Shown here piece by piece: positions 27,422 through 53,542 of a stretch of DNA of 57,310 nucleotides. This DNA comes from an uncultured Lachnospiraceae bacterium. GTDB taxonomy: Bacteria > Bacillota > Clostridia > Lachnospirales > Lachnospiraceae. The translations under genes were made by a program, and so were the position numbers. The notes beneath the pieces are model-generated. The model had not been told where the DNA came from and searched no databases. It worked only from the letters and a program-made list of their open reading frames with translations. The DNA is taken from contig CALWLK010000046.1 in NCBI GenBank assembly GCA_944381505.1, positions 1 through 57,310 on the forward strand, given 5' to 3'. The first letter of the stretch is position 1, and each line of letters opens with the position of its first letter.

Positions 27422-28933
27422 TTATTTCTTTTCCTTCTTCTCAGACATCAGCGCCTTTATAAGGGCAGCCCCCGCAAAGAACATAATGAATATGAAGGGG
27501 AAGGCCGCCGCAAGGGAGATGGTCTGGAGAGGATTCAGGCCGCCGGCCATGAGAAGACCAACTGCCAAAACCGCCATTGCCACGCCCCAAAGCACCTTTA
27601 TGGAGTTGGGAGGCTCAAGCTCTCCCTCGGTGGAGAACATTGCAAGTATGAAGGTTCCCGAGTTCGCCGAGGTTATGAAGAAGGTGCACAGAAGCACCAG
27701 TGAGATCACGCAGAGTATGCTTCCGAGAGGGAACTGCTGCATTACTATAAAGAGTCCTGTCTCGGGAGTCGCCGCTATCTCTGAGAGCTGCTCAAGGTTC
27801 ATAGCTCCCTGTGTGAAAAGGTGGATGGGAAGTGTTCCCATTATTGCGAACCATACTATGGAGCCAAGGGCCGGAGCAAGTACGACTCCGAAGATGAACT
27901 CTTTTATGGTCCTTCCCTTTGATATACGAGCTATGAAGGAGCCTACAAAGGGAGCCCATGCTATCCACCATGCCCAGTAGAAGATCCTCCAAGCGCCTAC
28001 CCAGGTGTTGTCCCCATAGGGCATCATCATAAGGCTGTCGCCGAAGAAGTTCTGGATGTACTGTCCGAGGCCGTTGGTGAGGTTGTCGAGTATCTCGACC
28101 TTGGGTCCTACAAGGAAGGTGAGTATGAGAAGGCCTATAGCTATGTAGAGGTTCGCGTCACCTATGAGCTTGATTCCCTTTCCGATTCCGTCAACCGCTG
28201 ACCAGATATAGATAACGCTTATTATGGCGATTATGATTATCTGAACCATGAGGTTTGAAGGAATTCCGAAAAGGTGGGTGAGTCCCGCGTTTATCTGAAG
28301 GACTCCGAGTCCCAAGGAGGTAACGACACCTGCTACGGTAGCGAATACCGCAAGGACGTCTATAGTCTTTCCGAGCCAGCCCTTAACTCCCTTCTCGCCG
28401 ATAAGGGGCTCGAAGATGGAGCTTATAAGTCCGGGCTTTCCCTTCCTGAAGGTGAAGTATGCGAGGCCGAGGCCTATTATGCAGTAGTTTGCCCAAGGAT
28501 GGAAGCCCCAATGCATGAAGGATGACCTTATTGCAAAGTCTATAGCCTCATCGCTTCCGGGCTCAATGCCGGGGATGGGAGAAGCCATATGAGAGATGGG
28601 CTCCGATATGCCCCAGAATACAAGGCCTACGCCCATACCTGCTCCGAAGAGCATTGCAAACCAAGACATTGTGGAATACTCGGGCTTTGAGTCGTCGGGA
28701 CCCAGCTTTACGTTGCCCCACTTGCTGAAGGCTATGCCGAAGGAAAATATAACGAAGGCAAGCATCGCAAGGAGATAAAGCCATCCGAAATCCTCAGTTA
28801 TAACGCCGTAGATGGCGTTTGAAACTACGGTAAAGTTGCCGTTGAATGCCACAGCCCAGACCGTCACGACCGCTGTGAGGAGCAGTGATACGACAAAGAC
28901 TGTGCTCATCTTTTTCTCTTTTTTATCGTTCAT
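27422..28933 (-). CDS. BCCT family betaine/choline/carnitine transporter
   Basis: 503 residues, 12 predicted membrane spans. The BCCT signature is complete: FGAGMGVGLVFWGISEPISH with the glycine-rich GMG stretch seen in sodium-coupled members, the aromatic box IFYWAWWIAWAPFVGSFIAR and the Glu/Lys-rich cytosolic tail. It lies 51 bases after the grdH-like gene in the same direction, so it most likely imports glycine betaine (or a similar methylamine) for the reductase. Confidence 0.93.
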   Translation of the reverse strand: MNDKKEKKMSTVFVVSLLLTAVVTVWAVAFNGNFTVVSNAIYGVITEDFGWLYLLAMLAFVIFSFGIAFSKWGNVKLGPDDSKPEYSTMSWFAMLFGAGMGVGLVFWGISEPISHMASPIPGIEPGSDEAIDFAIRSSFMHWGFHPWANYCIIGLGLAYFTFRKGKPGLISSIFEPLIGEKGVKGWLGKTIDVLAVFATVAGVVTSLGLGVLQINAGLTHLFGIPSNLMVQIIIIAIISVIYIWSAVDGIGKGIKLIGDANLYIAIGLLILTFLVGPKVEILDNLTNGLGQYIQNFFGDSLMMMPYGDNTWVGAWRIFYWAWWIAWAPFVGSFIARISKGRTIKEFIFGVVLAPALGSIVWFAIMGTLPIHLFTQGAMNLEQLSEIAATPETGLFIVMQQFPLGSILCVISLVLLCTFFITSANSGTFILAMFSTEGELEPPNSIKVLWGVAMAVLAVGLLMAGGLNPLQTISLAAAFPFIFIMFFAGAALIKALMSEKKEKK

Positions 28934-28984: not shown

Positions 28985-30304
28985 TTAAATCTCAACCTTG
29001 AATACGGTAGGTTTCTTGATCTCTGTTGCAAGAGCGTCCAAAGCGGTGCCGACTCTTGACTTTCTGAGAGTGTGCTGCTCCTCCTTTGAGGTTCCCGGAT
29101 TTCCGAGAGGATAAGGGATGGAGATTGTAGGAACGATCCTGTTTACGCCTACAGTCTGGGCAACAGGAACAAGGTTACACATGAGAACAACAGGGAATCC
29201 CGCGCGCTCAAATTCTTTTACCATCGTTGACCCGCAACGAGTACAGGTTCCTCAGGTAGATACCATTATTACCGCGTCTACGTTGTCCTCCTGTAAGAGG
29301 GGAATGATCTCCTTTGCCATTCTCTTCGCCTCGCCCTGAGTGGTACCTGTACCTACGGTCGAGTAGAAGTATTTGTGGATGGAGCCGATCTTTCCTTCCT
29401 TTAAATATTCCTTCATAACGTCAACAGGCATGATGACATTGGGATCCGCATTTGCCGCAGCGGGATCGAAACCTGCATGGATAGTCTTGAATACTCCGCT
29501 CTCAAGTCTGTCCATCTCGGATATGTCGTATCTTCCCCATCTGGTGGCGGAAGCCGACTGGATCCTGTCGGGGTTGTCCACGGGAACTATTCCTCCTGTG
29601 GTGGTGAGAGCTATCTTCGCCTTTGAGAGATCCTTGAGTGCCGGAGCAATGGGAACAAGGTCCTTCTTGGGAATTATGAGCTCTGATACGAAGGGCTTTC
29701 CTGTAGCCTTTGCTATGAGCATGTCAACCGCACGGTCTGCAGCCATAACTCCGTCTTTTCTCCAAACCTGATGACGGATGCCTCTCTGATAATATCCTTC
29801 GGCATCGGGGCCCTCTATCTCCTCGCCCTTCAATATCTTTCCGGCGAGAGCTACCATCATGTCGGCGTCATTTTTCATGCTTGCCGCCGAATGGCTGCCC
29901 TTCATGATGTACATATCCTTCTTGAACATCTCAACGCCGGGGTTCTCAGCGTGCATGGAGGTGATAACGGGAACGCCGAACTTCGCCTCAACGGCCTTTC
30001 CTATCTCACCGCAGGCAACGCCGTAACGTCCTGCCTGGAATGCGGGGCCTGCGAGGAAGAGATCGAACTCCTTGCCCTCCAGCTCCTTGAGTATCCTCTC
30101 TATAGCTTCGTCTCTGTGGGTGCTCATGAAGTTGTCTCCGCAGATAACGGTGTAGGTTACCTGAGCATCATAAGCCTTAAGTCCCATGTTGATGGCGCCT
30201 GTAGGGCCTACCACGCCCTGTCTTACTTCGGGCTCAAAATCAGCCTTGTCCTCTCCGCCGATACCGGCAAAGAACTGATTTATGTAGCATATAACGCTTT
30301 TCAT
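28985..30304 (-). CDS. grdH: Glycine/sarcosine/betaine reductase component B gamma subunit, selenoprotein
   Basis: 439 residues when the in-frame UGA at 29254-29252 is read as selenocysteine (U351). Without this the frame splits into 350- and 79-residue pieces. The active site reads VST-U-GTCTRCGSTMVKEFE, the UxxCxxC motif of GrdB/GrdF/GrdH. FFAGIGGEDKADFEP opens the protein, and GPAFQAGRYGVACG and GGIVPVDNPDRIQSA are family stretches. It cleaves the amine substrate with GrdI and passes the carboxymethyl group to selenoprotein A. The neighbouring BCCT transporter favours betaine (GrdH), though glycine or sarcosine cannot be excluded. AAAGGAG lies eight bases before the ATG. Confidence 0.92.
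29224..29254 (-). promoter_or_regulatory. UGA-Sec codon and candidate bacterial SECIS in the grdH-like gene
   Basis: The UGA occupies 29254-29252. Seventeen bases after it begins the loop CGGGT closed by the 6-bp stem TCGTTG / CAACGA. The spacing, short stem and a G at the second loop position fit the bacterial SECIS model read by SelB. Confidence 0.75.
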
Positions 30305-30329: not shown

Positions 30330-31655
30330 TTAAAATTCTTTCATAGTCTTTGTGGACCAGCCAATGATCTGATCTCCGCAGAACATTGCGTTGTTCTCCA
30401 TGATGATGGAGCCGTCGGGCCTTACCGAAGGTCCGAGTATCTCGTCGCCTGCCCATCCGCCTGAGAGTCCGTCGCGGCCGAGAGACTCAAGCTCTCCGAT
30501 AACCTCGGGCATGGGAGGAAGCTCTATGAGCTCTGAAACGTTTCCTGTGGAGACGATAGCGTCCTCCTTCTCATCCATTGAAACGAGGGGATCAGACTTT
30601 CCGTCACGGCCTGTACACTCGTTTGTAAGTCCTACGGTCTTTACTCCTGCATCCTCGAGGGCCACTATGCAGCCTGTGAAGTCGGCGTCGGGATTTCCGT
30701 ATCCCTCCTCGGTTACGATGGCGGCGTCAGCGCCGAGATCCTTTGCTATCCTTGCAACAAAGAGAGCCGAGCGCTCCTTCTGGTCAAGGGCAACATTAAG
30801 GTTTGACATTATTACGCCGAGGAAGTTGATTGTCTTTCCGTGCTCCTTGTAAAGTCTCTTTATAACGGGGCAGTTCTGGAAATCATAGGTAGCCCACTTT
30901 GATGAGCAGGGCATGAAACTTCCCGAGATCATTGCTCCGTCAAGCACCTCGTTGGGATTCATAAAGGTGGGGAGCATGTGGTTGCAGTCCCATCCGTAGC
31001 AGAGATCGTTGTATCCCATCTCCTCCATCTGTGACTGAGGCTGCATTACGTATACTACTGAAGGGAGCTTCTCGGTAGCGGGATCTCTCTTTATAACGGG
31101 CTCAAGCTCGTAGCTCTCGATCTCCTCGGGCTCAAGATCCTTTACGCACTTTCCGATGTACTCAGCCAGCTTGTGAACAGCTTCTCTTATGGCTCTGTTC
31201 TTCTTCTGCTGCTCTCTCTTCTCGAAATCCTCGTCTGTGTCGGCCACAAGGACGATGTTCTTGAGCTGTGAGAAGTAGGTGTACTTGGCTCCTTCGCCGC
31301 CCATGTCGATAAGTCCGTCCTGGAATCCTCCCCAGTGACGTCCTACAGCGAGAAGGCTCATTCCCTTAAGGCAGTGGGTCCTTCCGTTGCCGGCCTGAGA
31401 AAGGGGGCCTGTGTAGCCGGGGAAAAGAGCGTCGCCGTTTAATTTGACTCTGCACTCCACAGCTTCCTTGACAGGAACCAGCCTTACCATGTCTCCGGGC
31501 TTTACTATCCGAAGATCAGCTTCTGTGATATGAGGATCCTTTTTTACGAAATTAAGGCAGTCCTCCTTATCCACCGTAAGGATGCCGTTCTCATACTTGG
31601 TTTCATTGCCGAAAACGATATCCTTTACATAAAAGTTACCGAGTTCCAGTTTCAT
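30330..31655 (-). CDS. grdI: Glycine/sarcosine/betaine reductase component B alpha/beta proprotein
   Basis: 441 residues. MKLELGNFYVKDIVFGN, GPLSQAGNGRTHCLKGMSLL and SLGRDGLSGGWAGDEILGPS mark GrdE/GrdG/GrdI. Known relatives are cleaved at an internal cysteine near residue 240 to form a pyruvoyl group that binds the amine; C250 in SFMPCSSKW is the nearest candidate, with C224 and C262 also in range. It works with the gamma subunit 25 bases downstream. Assignment to betaine (GrdI) rests on the BCCT gene in the operon. The ribosome site is AAAGGAG. GrdA, GrdC, GrdD and the sel genes are not in this window. Confidence 0.92.
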   Translation of the reverse strand: MKLELGNFYVKDIVFGNETKYENGILTVDKEDCLNFVKKDPHITEADLRIVKPGDMVRLVPVKEAVECRVKLNGDALFPGYTGPLSQAGNGRTHCLKGMSLLAVGRHWGGFQDGLIDMGGEGAKYTYFSQLKNIVLVADTDEDFEKREQQKKNRAIREAVHKLAEYIGKCVKDLEPEEIESYELEPVIKRDPATEKLPSVVYVMQPQSQMEEMGYNDLCYGWDCNHMLPTFMNPNEVLDGAMISGSFMPCSSKWATYDFQNCPVIKRLYKEHGKTINFLGVIMSNLNVALDQKERSALFVARIAKDLGADAAIVTEEGYGNPDADFTGCIVALEDAGVKTVGLTNECTGRDGKSDPLVSMDEKEDAIVSTGNVSELIELPPMPEVIGELESLGRDGLSGGWAGDEILGPSVRPDGSIIMENNAMFCGDQIIGWSTKTMKEF

Positions 31656-48802: not shown

Positions 48803-49021
48803 ATGAAGAAGAAATATGAGCTTGAGGATCTGGACTGTGCCAACTGCGCGAGAAAGATGGAGGAGGCTATAAGCAAGATAGAGGGGGTAAGGGAGATAAA
48901 CATTTCTTTTATGGCTCAGAAGCTCACTATCGACGCGGATGACGACAGGTTTGACGAGATCATGAGGGAAGTGGAGAGGACCATAAAAAAGGTGGAGCCC
49001 GACTGTAATATCCTCATGTAG
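48803..49021 (+). CDS. Heavy-metal-associated (HMA) domain protein
   Basis: 72 residues, a single HMA ferredoxin-like domain. LEDLDCANCARKMEEAI holds the metal-binding CxxC (DCANC). It is the form normally fused at the N-terminus of zinc P1B ATPases; here it is a separate gene ahead of an ATPase that lacks it, so it may act as a metal donor or regulator. AAAGGAG lies before the ATG. Confidence 0.9.
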   Translation: MKKKYELEDLDCANCARKMEEAISKIEGVREINISFMAQKLTIDADDDRFDEIMREVERTIKKVEPDCNILM

Positions 49022-49070
49022 CTGAAGATACGGGAAGATGCGGAAGGGCGCACTTTAAGAGGGCAGATTT

Positions 49071-49385
49071 ATGAAGAAGGAAAAGATGACTATTATAGAC
49101 GTGACGGAAAACGAGCTCTATGACCTTGCGGAGCTCTTTAAGACCTTCGGGGATTCCACGAGGATAAAGATACTCTACGTGCTCTTTGATATGGAGAGGA
49201 GCGTGGGAGACATCGCCGACAAGCTCAACATGACTCAGTCGGCCATATCCCACCAGCTCAAGATATTGAAGCAGGCCCACCTCATTAAGTCGAGGAGGGA
49301 CGGAAAGACCATGCTATACAGCCTTGACGATGACCATGTAAAAACCATAATAGACATGGGCAAGCAGCATATAGAGGAGAAATAG
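49071..49385 (+). CDS. ArsR/SmtB family metal sensor repressor
   Basis: 104 residues. The winged HTH has FKTFGDSTRIKILYVLFD and MTQSAISHQLKILKQAHLIK. The C-terminal helix DDDHVKTIIDMGKQHIEEK shows D-x-H, then H eleven residues on, then E at +3, exactly the alpha-5 zinc site of SmtB/CzrA. There is no CadC-type cysteine cluster, so zinc or cobalt rather than cadmium/lead sensing is favoured. It probably binds the dyad at 48755-48776. Confidence 0.92.
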   Translation: MKKEKMTIIDVTENELYDLAELFKTFGDSTRIKILYVLFDMERSVGDIADKLNMTQSAISHQLKILKQAHLIKSRRDGKTMLYSLDDDHVKTIIDMGKQHIEEK

Positions 49386-49406
49386 AGACGGGAAAGTGTG
49401 CATGAC

Positions 49407-51314
49407 ATGACTAAAAAGCAGAGAAAAGAACTTCAAAGGATAATCATTGCGGCGATCATATTTTTTGTGTTTATGATCGGAGAGAACCTGGGGCTTTTTC
49501 CATTCATGGAAAACAGCCTCATAAGATTTATAATATTCCTGGTCCCCTACTATATAGTGGGAAAGGACGTGGTAAAGGGGGCTCTTCACGGAATAAAGGA
49601 GAGGGATATCTTTGATGAGGAATTCCTCATGACTATAGCTACTATAGGAGCCTTCGCCGTGGGTGAGTTTCCCGAGGCGGCGGCGGTAATGCTTTTTTAC
49701 TCCATAGGAGAGTGGTTCCAGAGCTATGCCGTGGGCAAGTCCAGAAGATCCATAAAGGCTCTCATGGATATAGCGCCTGAGTACGCAAATCTCCTTTCCG
49801 AGGACGGCAGCACAAGAGAGGTGGACCCTTCCGAGGTAAAGCCGGGGGATGTGATAGTGATAAAGGCCGGGGAGAAGGTGCCTGTTGACGGAGAGATCCT
49901 TGAGGGGTCGAGTATGGTGGACACGGCGGCCATCACAGGAGAATCCGTGCCCCGAAGCGCCCGCCCGGGTGACGAGATAATAAGCGGATGTATAAACGGA
50001 GAGGGACTTCTCAAGGTAAGAGTGCTCAAAAAATATGAGGACTCTACAGTGGCTAAGATACTTGACCTTGTGGAGAATGCCTCCTCAAAGAAGTCAAGGA
50101 CCGAGAAATTCATAACACGCTTTGCAAGGGTCTATACCCCCATAGTGGTCATCGGAGCAGTGATACTTGCCTTCGTGCCTCCCATAGTGATATATGCAGC
50201 AACTGCGGCAGGGATCATTCCGGAGGGTGCCATAGGAGGAGGCTTCTTGGAGTGGATAAGGAGGGCCTGTACCTTCCTCGTAATATCCTGCCCCTGCGCC
50301 CTTGTGATATCCGTTCCCTTGAGCTTCTTCGGAGGCATAGGAGCCGCGTCAAGAGCGGGTGTCCTTGTGAAGGGCTCAAACTACCTTGAAAACCTCGGAG
50401 AGCTCTCGGTGCTTGTGAGCGATAAGACAGGGACGCTCACAAAGGGAGAGTTCAGGGTGAGCTCGGTGCTTCCGGAGGACAACAAAGAGGAGATACTCCG
50501 CCTGGCGGCCTACGCCGAGAATTTCTCGGACCATCCCATTGCGGCCTCCATAAAGAGCGCCTACGGCGGAGATATAGAAGAAAAGCTCATTAAAGACATG
50601 GAGAACGTAAGCGGTCAGGGAATAAAGGCCCTTGTTGACGGGAAAAAGGTCCTGTGCGGAAACGACAAGCTCATGAGAGCGGAGAAAATAGAATTTGTTC
50701 CCTGCGAGGCTGCGGGAACTGTGGTCTACATTGCCTGCGACGGGAAATTTGAGGGAACTGTGGTCATCTCCGACACTGTAAAGGAGGAGGCCCGCGAGGC
50801 CGTGTCAGCCATAAAAAATGCCGGCGTGAGAGAGGTGGTAATGCTCACGGGAGACAGGAGAGAGGTCGGAGAGGTCGTTGCCTCAGAGCTCGGCCTGACG
50901 AAGGCTTATACGGAGCTCCTTCCGGGGGACAAGGTGAACATAGTGGAGGAGCTGGAGGAAAAGCTCTCCAAAAAGGAAAAGCTTGCCTTTGTGGGTGACG
51001 GCATAAACGACGCTCCTGTCCTTGCAAGAGCGGACATAGGCATAGCCATGGGATCCATGGGCTCCGATGCTGCAATAGAGGCTGCGGATGTGGTCATAAT
51101 GGACGACAACCTTATGCGGATACCCCAGGTCATAAGGATAGCGGGAAAGACCCTCTCCATAGCAAAGCAGAACATCGTGTTTGCCATAGGAGTAAAAACA
51201 GTCGTGCTCATATTGGGAGCGCTGGGAATAGCCAATATGTGGGCGGCGGTGTTTGCGGATACCGGGGTGAGCTTCATATGCGTGCTGAACTCCATGAGAG
51301 CTCTTAGGGAATAG
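49407..51314 (+). CDS. Zinc/cadmium-exporting P1B-type ATPase
   Basis: 635 residues, ZntA/CadA type. SCPCALVIS in the membrane binds metal, DKTGTLTKGE carries the phosphorylated Asp, and GDGINDAPVLARADIGIAMG is the hinge. The C-terminal KTVVLILGALGIANMWAAVF then ADTGVSF has the Lys and Asp typical of Zn/Cd/Pb pumps. There is no N-terminal HMA domain; that is the separate 48803 gene. The ATG at 49407 is preferred; a GTG at 49398 is in frame. It follows the sensor gene by 21 bases. Confidence 0.95.
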   Translation: MTKKQRKELQRIIIAAIIFFVFMIGENLGLFPFMENSLIRFIIFLVPYYIVGKDVVKGALHGIKERDIFDEEFLMTIATIGAFAVGEFPEAAAVMLFYSIGEWFQSYAVGKSRRSIKALMDIAPEYANLLSEDGSTREVDPSEVKPGDVIVIKAGEKVPVDGEILEGSSMVDTAAITGESVPRSARPGDEIISGCINGEGLLKVRVLKKYEDSTVAKILDLVENASSKKSRTEKFITRFARVYTPIVVIGAVILAFVPPIVIYAATAAGIIPEGAIGGGFLEWIRRACTFLVISCPCALVISVPLSFFGGIGAASRAGVLVKGSNYLENLGELSVLVSDKTGTLTKGEFRVSSVLPEDNKEEILRLAAYAENFSDHPIAASIKSAYGGDIEEKLIKDMENVSGQGIKALVDGKKVLCGNDKLMRAEKIEFVPCEAAGTVVYIACDGKFEGTVVISDTVKEEAREAVSAIKNAGVREVVMLTGDRREVGEVVASELGLTKAYTELLPGDKVNIVEELEEKLSKKEKLAFVGDGINDAPVLARADIGIAMGSMGSDAAIEAADVVIMDDNLMRIPQVIRIAGKTLSIAKQNIVFAIGVKTVVLILGALGIANMWAAVFADTGVSFICVLNSMRALRE

Positions 51315-51755: not shown

Positions 51756-52244
51756 ATGGAGAGAAGGGATAAAATAAACTATTACCTTGATCTGGCGGAG
51801 GTCGTGTCAAAAAGAGGGACCTGCCTCAGGAGGCTTTACGGGGCTGTCATAGTAAAAAATGACGAGGTCATCTCCACCGGTTACGTGGGGGCCCCCAGAG
51901 GAAGGAAAAACTGCTCGGACCTCGGGGTTTGCATAAGGGAAAAAATGAAGATACCCAGAGGTGAGAGGTATGAGCTCTGCCGCAGCGTACATGCCGAGGC
52001 GAACGCCATCATAAGCGCCGAGAGAAACAAGATGATAGGATCTTCGCTTTTCCTTGTAGGAGTAGACGTGAGGACAGGGGAATATGTAGAGAATGCCTCC
52101 TGCTGCTCCATGTGCAAGCGCATGGTGATAAATGCGGGCATAGAGAAGGTGTACGTAAGGGATGACAAGGACAGCTACAGAGTGATAGAGGTGTCCGATT
52201 GGATAGAAAACGACGAGTCACTCGAAGGAGTAATGGGATATTAA
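51756..52244 (+). CDS. dCMP deaminase family (ComEB-like) protein
   Basis: 162 residues. The zinc-dependent deaminase motifs are SVHAEANAIISAERNKM (HAE) and ASCCSMCKRMVINAGIEKVY, where the usual PCxxC is CCSMC. CLRRLYGAVIVKNDEVISTG and YVGAPRGRKNC match the dCMP deaminase/ComEB subgroup. It probably converts dCMP to dUMP for thymidylate supply. GGAGG precedes the ATG. Confidence 0.87.
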   Translation: MERRDKINYYLDLAEVVSKRGTCLRRLYGAVIVKNDEVISTGYVGAPRGRKNCSDLGVCIREKMKIPRGERYELCRSVHAEANAIISAERNKMIGSSLFLVGVDVRTGEYVENASCCSMCKRMVINAGIEKVYVRDDKDSYRVIEVSDWIENDESLEGVMGY

Positions 52245-52304: not shown

Positions 52305-52769
52305 ATGCTTAAAGAAGGAATGAAGGCCCCTGAGTTTACTCTCAGGGACCAGAATGACAGGGATATAAGCCTCTCGGATTTTCGGGGAAAGAATGTGGTC
52401 ATCTTCTTTTATTCAAAGGATATGACAGCGGGGTGAGCGTCTCAGGCTCAGGGCTATGCTGAGCTTTATCCTCGGTTTGAGGAAAAGAACGCGGTGGTAA
52501 TAGGCATAAGCAAGGACAGTTCTGCATCCCACAAAAAATTTGAACAGAAGTATGAGATTCCGTATATACTGCTCTCGGATCCCGAGAAGGAGGTGCTTGA
52601 TGCCTACGGGGTTTGGAAGGAAAAGAACATGTACGGGAAAAAGGTCATGGGAGTTGTGAGATCGAGCTTTATAATTGACGAGGAGGGGAATATCGAAAAG
52701 ATATTCTTAAAGGTAAAAGCAAAGGAAAATCCCGGGGAAACTCTCTCTTTTTTAGAGGCTCTTTCATGA
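52305..52769 (+). CDS. Selenocysteine peroxiredoxin (BCP/PrxQ type)
   Basis: 154 residues when the UGA at 52434-52436 is read as selenocysteine (U44). KEGMKAPEFTLRDQNDRDIS and FRGKNVVIFFYSKDMTAG-U replace the TPGC peroxidatic site of BCP/PrxQ, so U44 is at the attacking position. VVIGISKDSSASHKKFEQKY, YGVWKEKNMYGKKVMGVVRS and SFIIDEEGNIEKIF complete the thioredoxin fold. The protein has no cysteine at all, so there is no resolving thiol; it must be resolved by a partner. AAGGAGA precedes the ATG. Its stop overlaps the yaaA start. A pseudogene is the alternative but fits worse. Confidence 0.85.
52434..52466 (+). promoter_or_regulatory. UGA-Sec codon and candidate bacterial SECIS in the peroxiredoxin gene
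   Basis: After the UGA, AGGCTCAG pairs with CTGAGCTT (8 bp, one G-U) around the loop GGCTATG. The loop starts 15 bases after the UGA and has G at its first two positions, close to the bacterial SECIS model. Confidence 0.75.
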
Positions 52770-53542
52770 GGATAATAATTTCCCCCGCAAAAAAGATGGT
52801 GAGAGATACGGACACCTTCACAGCAACGGGAAAGCCCGCCCTTATGGACAAGGTCCTCATACTGAAGGATTACCTTGAAAAAAGGAGCTATGAGGAACTG
52901 AAAAGCATCTGGCAGTGCAATGAAAAGCTTGCCCTCTTAAGCTATGAGAGGCTGAGGGAGGCGGACATTTCCGAGGGCCAAAAGACCCCTGCCGTCATTG
53001 CCTATGACGGCATACAGTATCAGTATATGTCTCCCAAAACTCTTGAGAAGGATGCCCTTTTGTATATTGAAAAGAACTTGAGGATATTGTCCGGGCTTTA
53101 CGGGGTGCTTAGGGCTATGGACGGAGTGGAGCCCTACAGGCTGGAGATGCAGGCGCGCTTGGAGCCGCCGCTTTTTATGGAAAACGGGGGTGAGAGAATA
53201 ACGCCCTGTGCGAGCCTTTATGACTTCTGGGGCGAAGATATCTGCCGCGAGCTTTTTTCAGGGGAGGACACGGTCTTGAATCTTGCCTCCAAGGAGTATT
53301 CAAAGGCTGTGGAGCCTTATATAAAGGAAGGCGACAGATTCATAAGCTGTGCTTTTTGCGAACTGAAGGAAGGAAAGCCGAAGCAGAAGGCCACGCTTTC
53401 AAAGATGGCCAGAGGGGAGGCTGTGCGCTTCATGGCTCAAAGTAATACAGAAAAGCCCGAGGATATCAAAAACTTTTCAGGTCTCGGATTTTCTTTTGAG
53501 GAAAAGTATTCCGACGAGAACAACTATGTTTTTGTGAGGTAA
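52766..53542 (+). CDS. yaaA: Peroxide stress protein YaaA
   Basis: 258 residues. MRIIISPAKKMVRDTDTF, PAVIAYDGIQYQYMSP, LRILSGLYGVLRAMDGVEPY and NLASKEYSKAV are signatures of YaaA (DUF328). E. coli YaaA lowers free iron and protects DNA under peroxide stress. The ATG overlaps the selenoprotein peroxiredoxin stop by four bases, so both are coupled: one removes peroxide, the other limits its damage. Confidence 0.93.
   Translation: MRIIISPAKKMVRDTDTFTATGKPALMDKVLILKDYLEKRSYEELKSIWQCNEKLALLSYERLREADISEGQKTPAVIAYDGIQYQYMSPKTLEKDALLYIEKNLRILSGLYGVLRAMDGVEPYRLEMQARLEPPLFMENGGERITPCASLYDFWGEDICRELFSGEDTVLNLASKEYSKAVEPYIKEGDRFISCAFCELKEGKPKQKATLSKMARGEAVRFMAQSNTEKPEDIKNFSGLGFSFEEKYSDENNYVFVR

Follow-up and report, generated by a model that had tools for sequence, protein, structure and literature searches.

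Selenocysteine (Sec)-containing BCP peroxiredoxins are neither rare nor new. They have been in print since 2005, when passages of the Sargasso Sea selenoproteome study recorded 43 peroxiredoxin selenoproteins of COG1225 with a TxxU motif (PMC1088965). A survey of 2006 gives 12 peroxiredoxin selenoproteins and five Cys-to-Sec events (PMC1794560), and the group, which a 2022 review labels COG1225 (Bcp) TxxU (PMC9312934), also appears in a review of 2026. Several other systems are close enough to invite comparison. Atypical 2-Cys PrxQ/BCP enzymes carry a C-X4-C arrangement, and the passages of PMC5302317 on which we draw give a Pxxx(T/S)xxC motif plus a distant Arg as the criterion for PrxQ/BCP peroxiredoxins and place AhpE and Prx6 in other peroxiredoxin subfamilies. 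PrxU of Eubacterium acidaminophilum is described as a Sec peroxiredoxin of a strict anaerobe. For animal Sec-glutathione peroxidases, a Cys-to-Sec change is described as having removed the need for a resolving Cys, which was lost later (PMC8614756).

The window analysed here is the whole 57,310-nucleotide stretch of a contig from an uncultured Lachnospiraceae bacterium. Based on profile matches, structure prediction, and selection, a Sec-containing BCP/PrxQ peroxiredoxin gene was assigned to 52305..52769 on the plus strand. It starts with an ATG at 52305, with AAGGAG 5 nt upstream, and runs for 43 codons to a TGA at 52434-52436 (codon 44), then for another 110 codons to its own stop, a TGA at 52767-52769. 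When the first TGA is taken as a residue, the product has 154 aa and lacks any Cys. The first-pass annotation had described a frame intact on both sides of one UGA, a UGA at the peroxidatic Cys of the BCP motif, and a protein otherwise free of Cys, and all three descriptions hold: the read-through product passes the family models, its in-frame UGA (TAG-U) aligns with TGC or TGT in 106 of 110 loci (the other 4 having TGA), and its translation contains no Cys. Scores were 136.6 bits against Pfam AhpC-TSA (PF00578; cut-off 26) and 144.9 bits against NCBIfam PRK09437 (thioredoxin-dependent thiol peroxidase/BCP; cut-off 140), the latter obtained on 155 aa with both Sec and the terminal TGA written as Cys. 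The AlphaFold model has a mean pLDDT of 97.3, and its ten best PDB matches comprise the BCP model 9a4d, the B. ambifaria alkyl hydroperoxide reductase 5enu, and X. campestris PrxQ/BCP entries, with TMq values of 0.97 for 9a4d, an integrative model of ACKA-BCP, and 0.92-0.94 for crystal structures such as 5enu and X. campestris PrxQ 5iiz. Gly28, Tyr36, position 44, Gly67, and Asp71 are invariant in 58 aligned relatives, as are the active-site residues Thr41 (52425..52427, plus strand) and Arg119 (52659..52661, plus strand). Within the Pxxx(T/S)xxC motif the window protein retains Thr41, along with the distant Arg119, and has Sec for Cys and Ser37 for Pro, a replacement shared by 21 of the 192 Cys rows and seen in 4 of the 19 Sec rows (window protein included). 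It is the single match of the peroxiredoxin family in its own genome at E 1e-5. As judged from these sequence features, the gene very probably encodes a peroxide-destroying enzyme with selenocysteine as its only catalytic residue.

This protein resembles the COG1225 TxxU peroxiredoxins in COG-level family (by label), in a peroxidatic Sec following T-x-x, and in the use of bacterial Sec machinery. It departs from their PxxxTxxU motif through Ser in place of Pro, and its clade, which sits within 2-Cys PrxQs, shows 37-49% identity to the 14 other Sec-BCPs of our phylum scan. Fold, Thr41, Arg119, and length are those of an atypical 2-Cys PrxQ; however, Sec replaces the peroxidatic Cys and there is no resolving Cys, and a protein without any Cys does not belong to that class. 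A single catalytic chalcogen and the need for an external thiol are features of 1-Cys peroxiredoxins (PrxQ without a resolving Cys, AhpE, Prx6), although these use sulfur where the window protein would use selenium. Animal Sec-glutathione peroxidases likewise combine a change from Cys to Sec with a lost resolving Cys, but belong to another family and rely on a eukaryotic SECIS. The first-pass annotation had named PrxU of E. acidaminophilum as an example of the Sec-containing Prx of a few anaerobes; with 63.8 bits against NCBIfam NF040737 (cut-off 270), the window protein falls in a different Prx family, and PrxU is not its closest relative.

The same annotation had considered a Cys-less Sec-BCP unusual, a view that the literature on the TxxU family and our genome scans both contradict. 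A phylum sample of 398 genomes gave a match in 69, the window genome included; of the remaining 68, 14 have a UGA at codon 44, all 14 without Cys49 (residue 49 being Q, I, D, E, E, N, V, V, V, and five times K); this count rests on 67 of 71 non-own match rows, as G788 and second matches in G626, G665, and G752 were listed without a stop. Cys49 was present in 41 of the 53 distinct Cys rows from this sample. Across all 19 Sec rows gathered in this study, 10 have no Cys at all in the aligned columns. Closer to the window genome, the only Sec forms in a family sample (58 of 200 genomes matching) were those of the genome itself and of G117, and an order sample (125 of 392 genomes matching) contributed two more, in G289 and G325, both from family f19 and both with SelA over cut-off. 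For rows of these two samples beyond the retrieved loci, the call rests on the stop column of the match table; the one TGA of G560 in the order sample, where the match ends at residue 152, was assumed to be terminal. Five phylum-scan genomes of one genus (g353; L228-L232) encode Sec-PrxQs with Lys49 and an extra Cys at 8, 98, or 100, and have a hairpin with a GGU loop 31 nt after the UGA.

A search of 25 genomes from the genus of the window bacterium returned PrxQ at E 1e-5 in 16, one of which (G210) had a weak paralogue only; two weak matches (28-32% identity; G200 and G210) were treated as paralogues. The 15 genomes with an orthologue (truncated in G213) divide into 3 Sec and 12 Cys forms. 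Most of the closest Cys relatives are 2-Cys PrxQs of the type C44-X4-C49, and all three Sec species have Gln at the resolving-Cys position, which in the window is codon 49, CAG (52449..52451, plus strand). Over 211 distinct rows (237 best hits, giving 236 rows and then 211 once the truncated L142 and duplicates had been dropped), Cys49 occurs in 170 of 192 Cys forms vs 1 of 19 Sec forms. Pooled Fisher p values for this association ignore kinship, the rows being related and chosen by similarity, and only four independent pairs lie on starred branches of the tree (on average 2.6 in the same direction, 0.1 opposite, and 1.3 without difference), too few for significance. One f19 locus, L179 of G325, combines U44 with a Cys codon (TGC) at 49, and the other, L178, is U44-R49; both show gaps within about residues 104-110. 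L179, which comes from one genome that is 78% complete, indicates that Sec and Cys49 can coexist, and the f19 pair fits an order in which Sec came first and the resolving Cys was lost later. We lean, if only slightly, towards the reading that entry of Sec at the peroxidatic site repeatedly converts atypical 2-Cys PrxQs into 1-Sec peroxidases, in a bacterial parallel to the animal glutathione peroxidases that would include a genus with both states next to yaaA. Within the literature covered on Sec-peroxiredoxins and the resolving Cys, namely titles, abstract openings, and passages, mostly from outside the subscription journals, a loss of the Cys49 type is not stated for peroxiredoxins.

Immediately downstream of the peroxiredoxin stands yaaA, which encodes a peroxide stress protein (52766..53542, plus strand; NF002543 254.4 bits, cut-off 204) and whose start overlaps the peroxiredoxin stop (ATGA). 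In E. coli, YaaA is described as shrinking the iron pool during H2O2 stress (PMC8115020). PrxQ adjoins yaaA at both sister Sec loci and at 8 of the 11 genus Cys loci examined, at 1 of the 14 next nearest loci (L052-L065, with flanks of 3 kb or less), and at none of the 18 more remote loci tested, a set that includes 16 Sec forms. Upstream lies a deaminase-like gene (51756..52244, plus strand), which reaches 52.3 bits against a ComEB model with a cut-off of 219.45. Further upstream, the stretch 48803-51314 holds genes for a small metal-binding-like protein and an ArsR-like regulator, both named by eye, and for a heavy-metal P-type ATPase (TIGR01525, 580.9 bits), in an order kept in both sister species.

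The origin of the Sec form was approached with two trees. In the first (129 rows, quick method, columns 44 and 49 removed), the three Sec species formed a 100% clade within a starred set of 9, the other six being Cys forms and five of these having Cys49. In a more careful tree of 61 rows, a starred set of 32 contained them together with 29 Cys forms. The 129-row tree required 8 Sec/Cys changes, starred branches forcing 4 of them, and the 61-row tree required 6, of which 5 were forced; as one element of the recurrent-conversion reading, and with the same modest preference, we suppose a minimum of four or five switches between Cys and Sec among PrxQ lineages. A single clade of all 19 Sec rows was rejected (p-AU 0.00136), as was a clade uniting the Sec forms of the genus with the 14 phylum-scan Sec rows (p-AU 0.00152); a clade of the genus Sec forms with the two f19 Sec forms was not rejected (p-AU 0.145). 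These results suggest that the switch to Sec here likely was a separate Cys-to-Sec change among 2-Cys PrxQs, with Cys49 lost before the three species split: the lineage seems to have switched on its own, and to have lost the helper Cys at about the same time. Conversion in place has one competitor, namely that the Sec gene was gained by horizontal transfer into the PrxQ-yaaA site, to which we give somewhat less than an even chance. A clade of the genus Sec forms with the YaaA-linked Cys-PrxQs of the genus was weakly rejected (p-AU 0.040), and the rows nearest by path are PrxQs outside the genus set, as a transfer would predict. The PrxQ-yaaA pairing, however, also characterizes most of the genus Cys loci examined, and the 80 loci retained out of 403 relatives include none with Sec that is closer than the two sisters.

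A second alternative concerns the loss of Cys49, which might reflect the SECIS and not chemistry, codon 49 lying in a stem that a Cys codon would weaken. The first-pass annotation had noted a SECIS-like hairpin after the UGA, and there is one: at 52444..52466 on the plus strand, 8 bp enclose a 7-nt loop, GGCUAUG, and codon 49 forms part of the 5' arm. A bacterial SECIS (bSECIS) model, as given in passages of PMC13188914, calls for a stem of 4-16 bp, a loop of 3-9 nt that has a G within its first two positions, and a spacing of 16-37 nt; the window hairpin fits in all features except its UGA-to-loop spacing of 15 nt, one short of the minimum. Taken alone, it is not significant. Folding relative to 200 dinucleotide shuffles gave a z of -2.07 for 52440-52470 (5 of 200 as good), and z values from -0.34 to -1.53 for the other three of the four windows folded. 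Against synonymous recodings the window gene was not distinct (p 0.288; 0.088 and 0.046 for the sisters), nor was its hairpin among Cys genes, 36 of 192 of which have an equally stable one when any hairpin counts. Synonymous conservation over the hairpin (5 of 6 codons vs 41 of 101, p 0.08) is suggestive only, and in the sister locus L050 an A-C mismatch breaks the stem. At the peroxiredoxin UGA, Rfam found no SECIS, and relaxing E up to 10 gave three non-SECIS matches far below their gathering scores.

Considered as a group, Sec genes are enriched for bSECIS geometry at weak energy cut-offs only, by a comparison whose p values are rough given that the genes are related. With a minimum spacing of 15 nt, chosen to match the 15 nt of the window gene itself, the geometry was found in 16, 10, 4, and 3 of 19 Sec genes and in 51, 27, 15, and 7 of 192 Cys genes at -3, -5, -7, and -9 kcal/mol, respectively (p 1e-6, 2.5e-4, 0.08, and 0.05). 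Under the strict spacing of at least 16 nt, at which the window hairpin drops out, the counts were 13, 7, 2, and 1 of 19 vs 49, 27, 15, and 7 of 192 (p 2.6e-4, 0.02, 0.47, and 0.54). Folding statistics failed to separate Sec from Cys genes and likewise gave a z of -0.05 for the Rfam-recognised SECIS of the GrdH-like gene described below; since they neither single out that element nor distinguish the two groups, simple folding statistics are uninformative here. A role of the peroxiredoxin hairpin as a SECIS is plausible, not proven. As for Cys49, replacing codon 49 with UGU or UGC would leave the isolated hairpin weaker, at -5.4 or -6.9 instead of -10.6 kcal/mol, and any gene so laid out has its codon 49 at 13-15 nt past the UGA. 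Yet L179 keeps its TGC at codon 49 with U44, and a model scan placed the best hairpin of several other Sec genes further downstream. The SECIS of animal glutathione peroxidases is located elsewhere. The same loss of a resolving Cys is nonetheless told for these enzymes (PMC8614756), and we consider it unlikely that RNA structure accounts for the absence of Cys49.

A third alternative, that a nonsense mutation or a sequencing or assembly error has left a broken or misread Cys-PrxQ, could appeal to the single base separating TGA from TGC/TGT and to the fragmented state of the bin, but was rejected on the evidence of the sister species and of selection. The four TGA loci represent three genomes (the window genome, G117 with L051, and G219 with L050; one locus is counted twice), so that the identical TGA stands in three assemblies of three species, the sister Sec proteins being 82% identical to the window protein. 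Nor would an error at codon 44 account for Gln49, which all three share. Downstream of the UGA, dN/dS for the three species pairs was 0.131, 0.102, and 0.083, similar to the values for two intact Cys pairs (0.055 and 0.093). With the UGA shared between sister species and strong selection acting downstream of it, the comparison indicates that the in-frame UGA is neither an error nor a mark of a pseudogene, and we regard either possibility as very improbable.

Absence of sel genes, which the first-pass annotation had named as the observation that would overturn its reading, was looked for in the genome, a 1.80 Mb bin of 100 contigs that is 86.6% complete. A tRNA-Sec with anticodon UCA (61.3 bits, cut-off 47), SelA (584.5 bits) and SelB (361.9 bits) beside it, and SelD (360.1 bits) are all there, each over its cut-off. 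The SelD gene (L018, minus strand of contig C49 of the window genome, G000) has an in-frame UGA of its own, U16 in GECGGUASK, and SelD itself is probably a selenoprotein. Only matches over cut-off were counted, because weaker ones occurred in up to 14 of 14 control genomes; over cut-off, these controls had tRNA-Sec in 5, SelA in 1, SelB in 2, and SelD in 2, so that a tRNA-Sec match alone would not settle Sec capacity. In the 25 genus genomes, SelA was over cut-off in 6, namely the 3 Sec-PrxQ genomes and 3 in which no PrxQ orthologue was found (G210, G216, and G218), where Sec is presumably kept for other proteins. It was over cut-off in no Cys-PrxQ genome out of 12; SelA-like matches in two of these, G201 and G221, reached 56-57 bits, far under cut-off. 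Decoding of the UGA as Trp or another residue under a variant code, for which it can be said that the frame stays open with TGA as any residue, was rejected as extremely improbable given the complete Sec machinery, the Cys aligned with it at every locus that does not itself have TGA, and the use of TGA to terminate both the peroxiredoxin gene and a methyltransferase gene in the window.

Together, these observations point to a 1-Sec PrxQ/BCP peroxidase. SelB would bring Sec-tRNA to the UGA at 52434, helped by the hairpin directly after it, and the Sec44 selenolate, with Thr41 and Arg119, would attack H2O2 or an organic peroxide to give a selenenic acid. Relatives of the 2-Cys type would resolve this intermediate through Cys49; with Gln at this position and hence no resolving Cys, an external thiol would be required, first forming and then reducing a selenenylsulfide. 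The first-pass annotation had likewise proposed a 1-Sec enzyme dependent on an external reductant, of which the first part agrees with the lack of any other Cys and the second follows, by inference, from the absence of a resolving Cys. The reductant would most likely be thioredoxin, and the genome encodes a canonical thioredoxin (TIGR01068, 101.5 bits, cut-off 96.8) and a second small thioredoxin-family protein (PF00085, 26 bits, cut-off 23.5). The peroxiredoxin and yaaA may be co-transcribed as a small peroxide-defence operon. The Sec form would have arisen among 2-Cys PrxQs by a Cys-to-Sec change apart from that of the other Sec-BCPs of the phylum, and the resolving Cys would have been lost before the three species diverged. 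We hold this explanation as a whole, including mechanism, operon with yaaA, and separate origin, to be highly probable.

The window contains a second selenoprotein gene, for a GrdH-like betaine reductase selenoprotein B (28985..30304, minus strand), in which the TGA at 29252-29254 corresponds to Sec351. It scored 770.2 bits against NF040795, just under the cut-off of 775, and 654.5 bits against TIGR01918 (cut-off 65.45), and directly after its UGA lies an Rfam SECIS_4 (29214..29251, minus strand; 53.6 bits, gathering score 38). The gene has a GrdG-like subunit on one side (30330-31655; 347 bits against a cut-off of 780) and a BCCT transporter on the other (27422-28933), and the three look like a betaine-reducing Sec operon.

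With the peroxiredoxin, the use of Sec in this bacterium, which has betaine reductase genes, would extend to peroxide defence. The interest of the locus lies in the pairing of Cys and Sec forms inside one genus and in a loss of the resolving Cys that is apparently recurrent. Here, Cys and Sec forms of one small peroxidase, about 50-62% identical, occur in a single genus and mostly beside the same gene, and such a matched pair lets one ask why a cell pays for selenocysteine and how selenocysteine affects the requirement for a resolving Cys.
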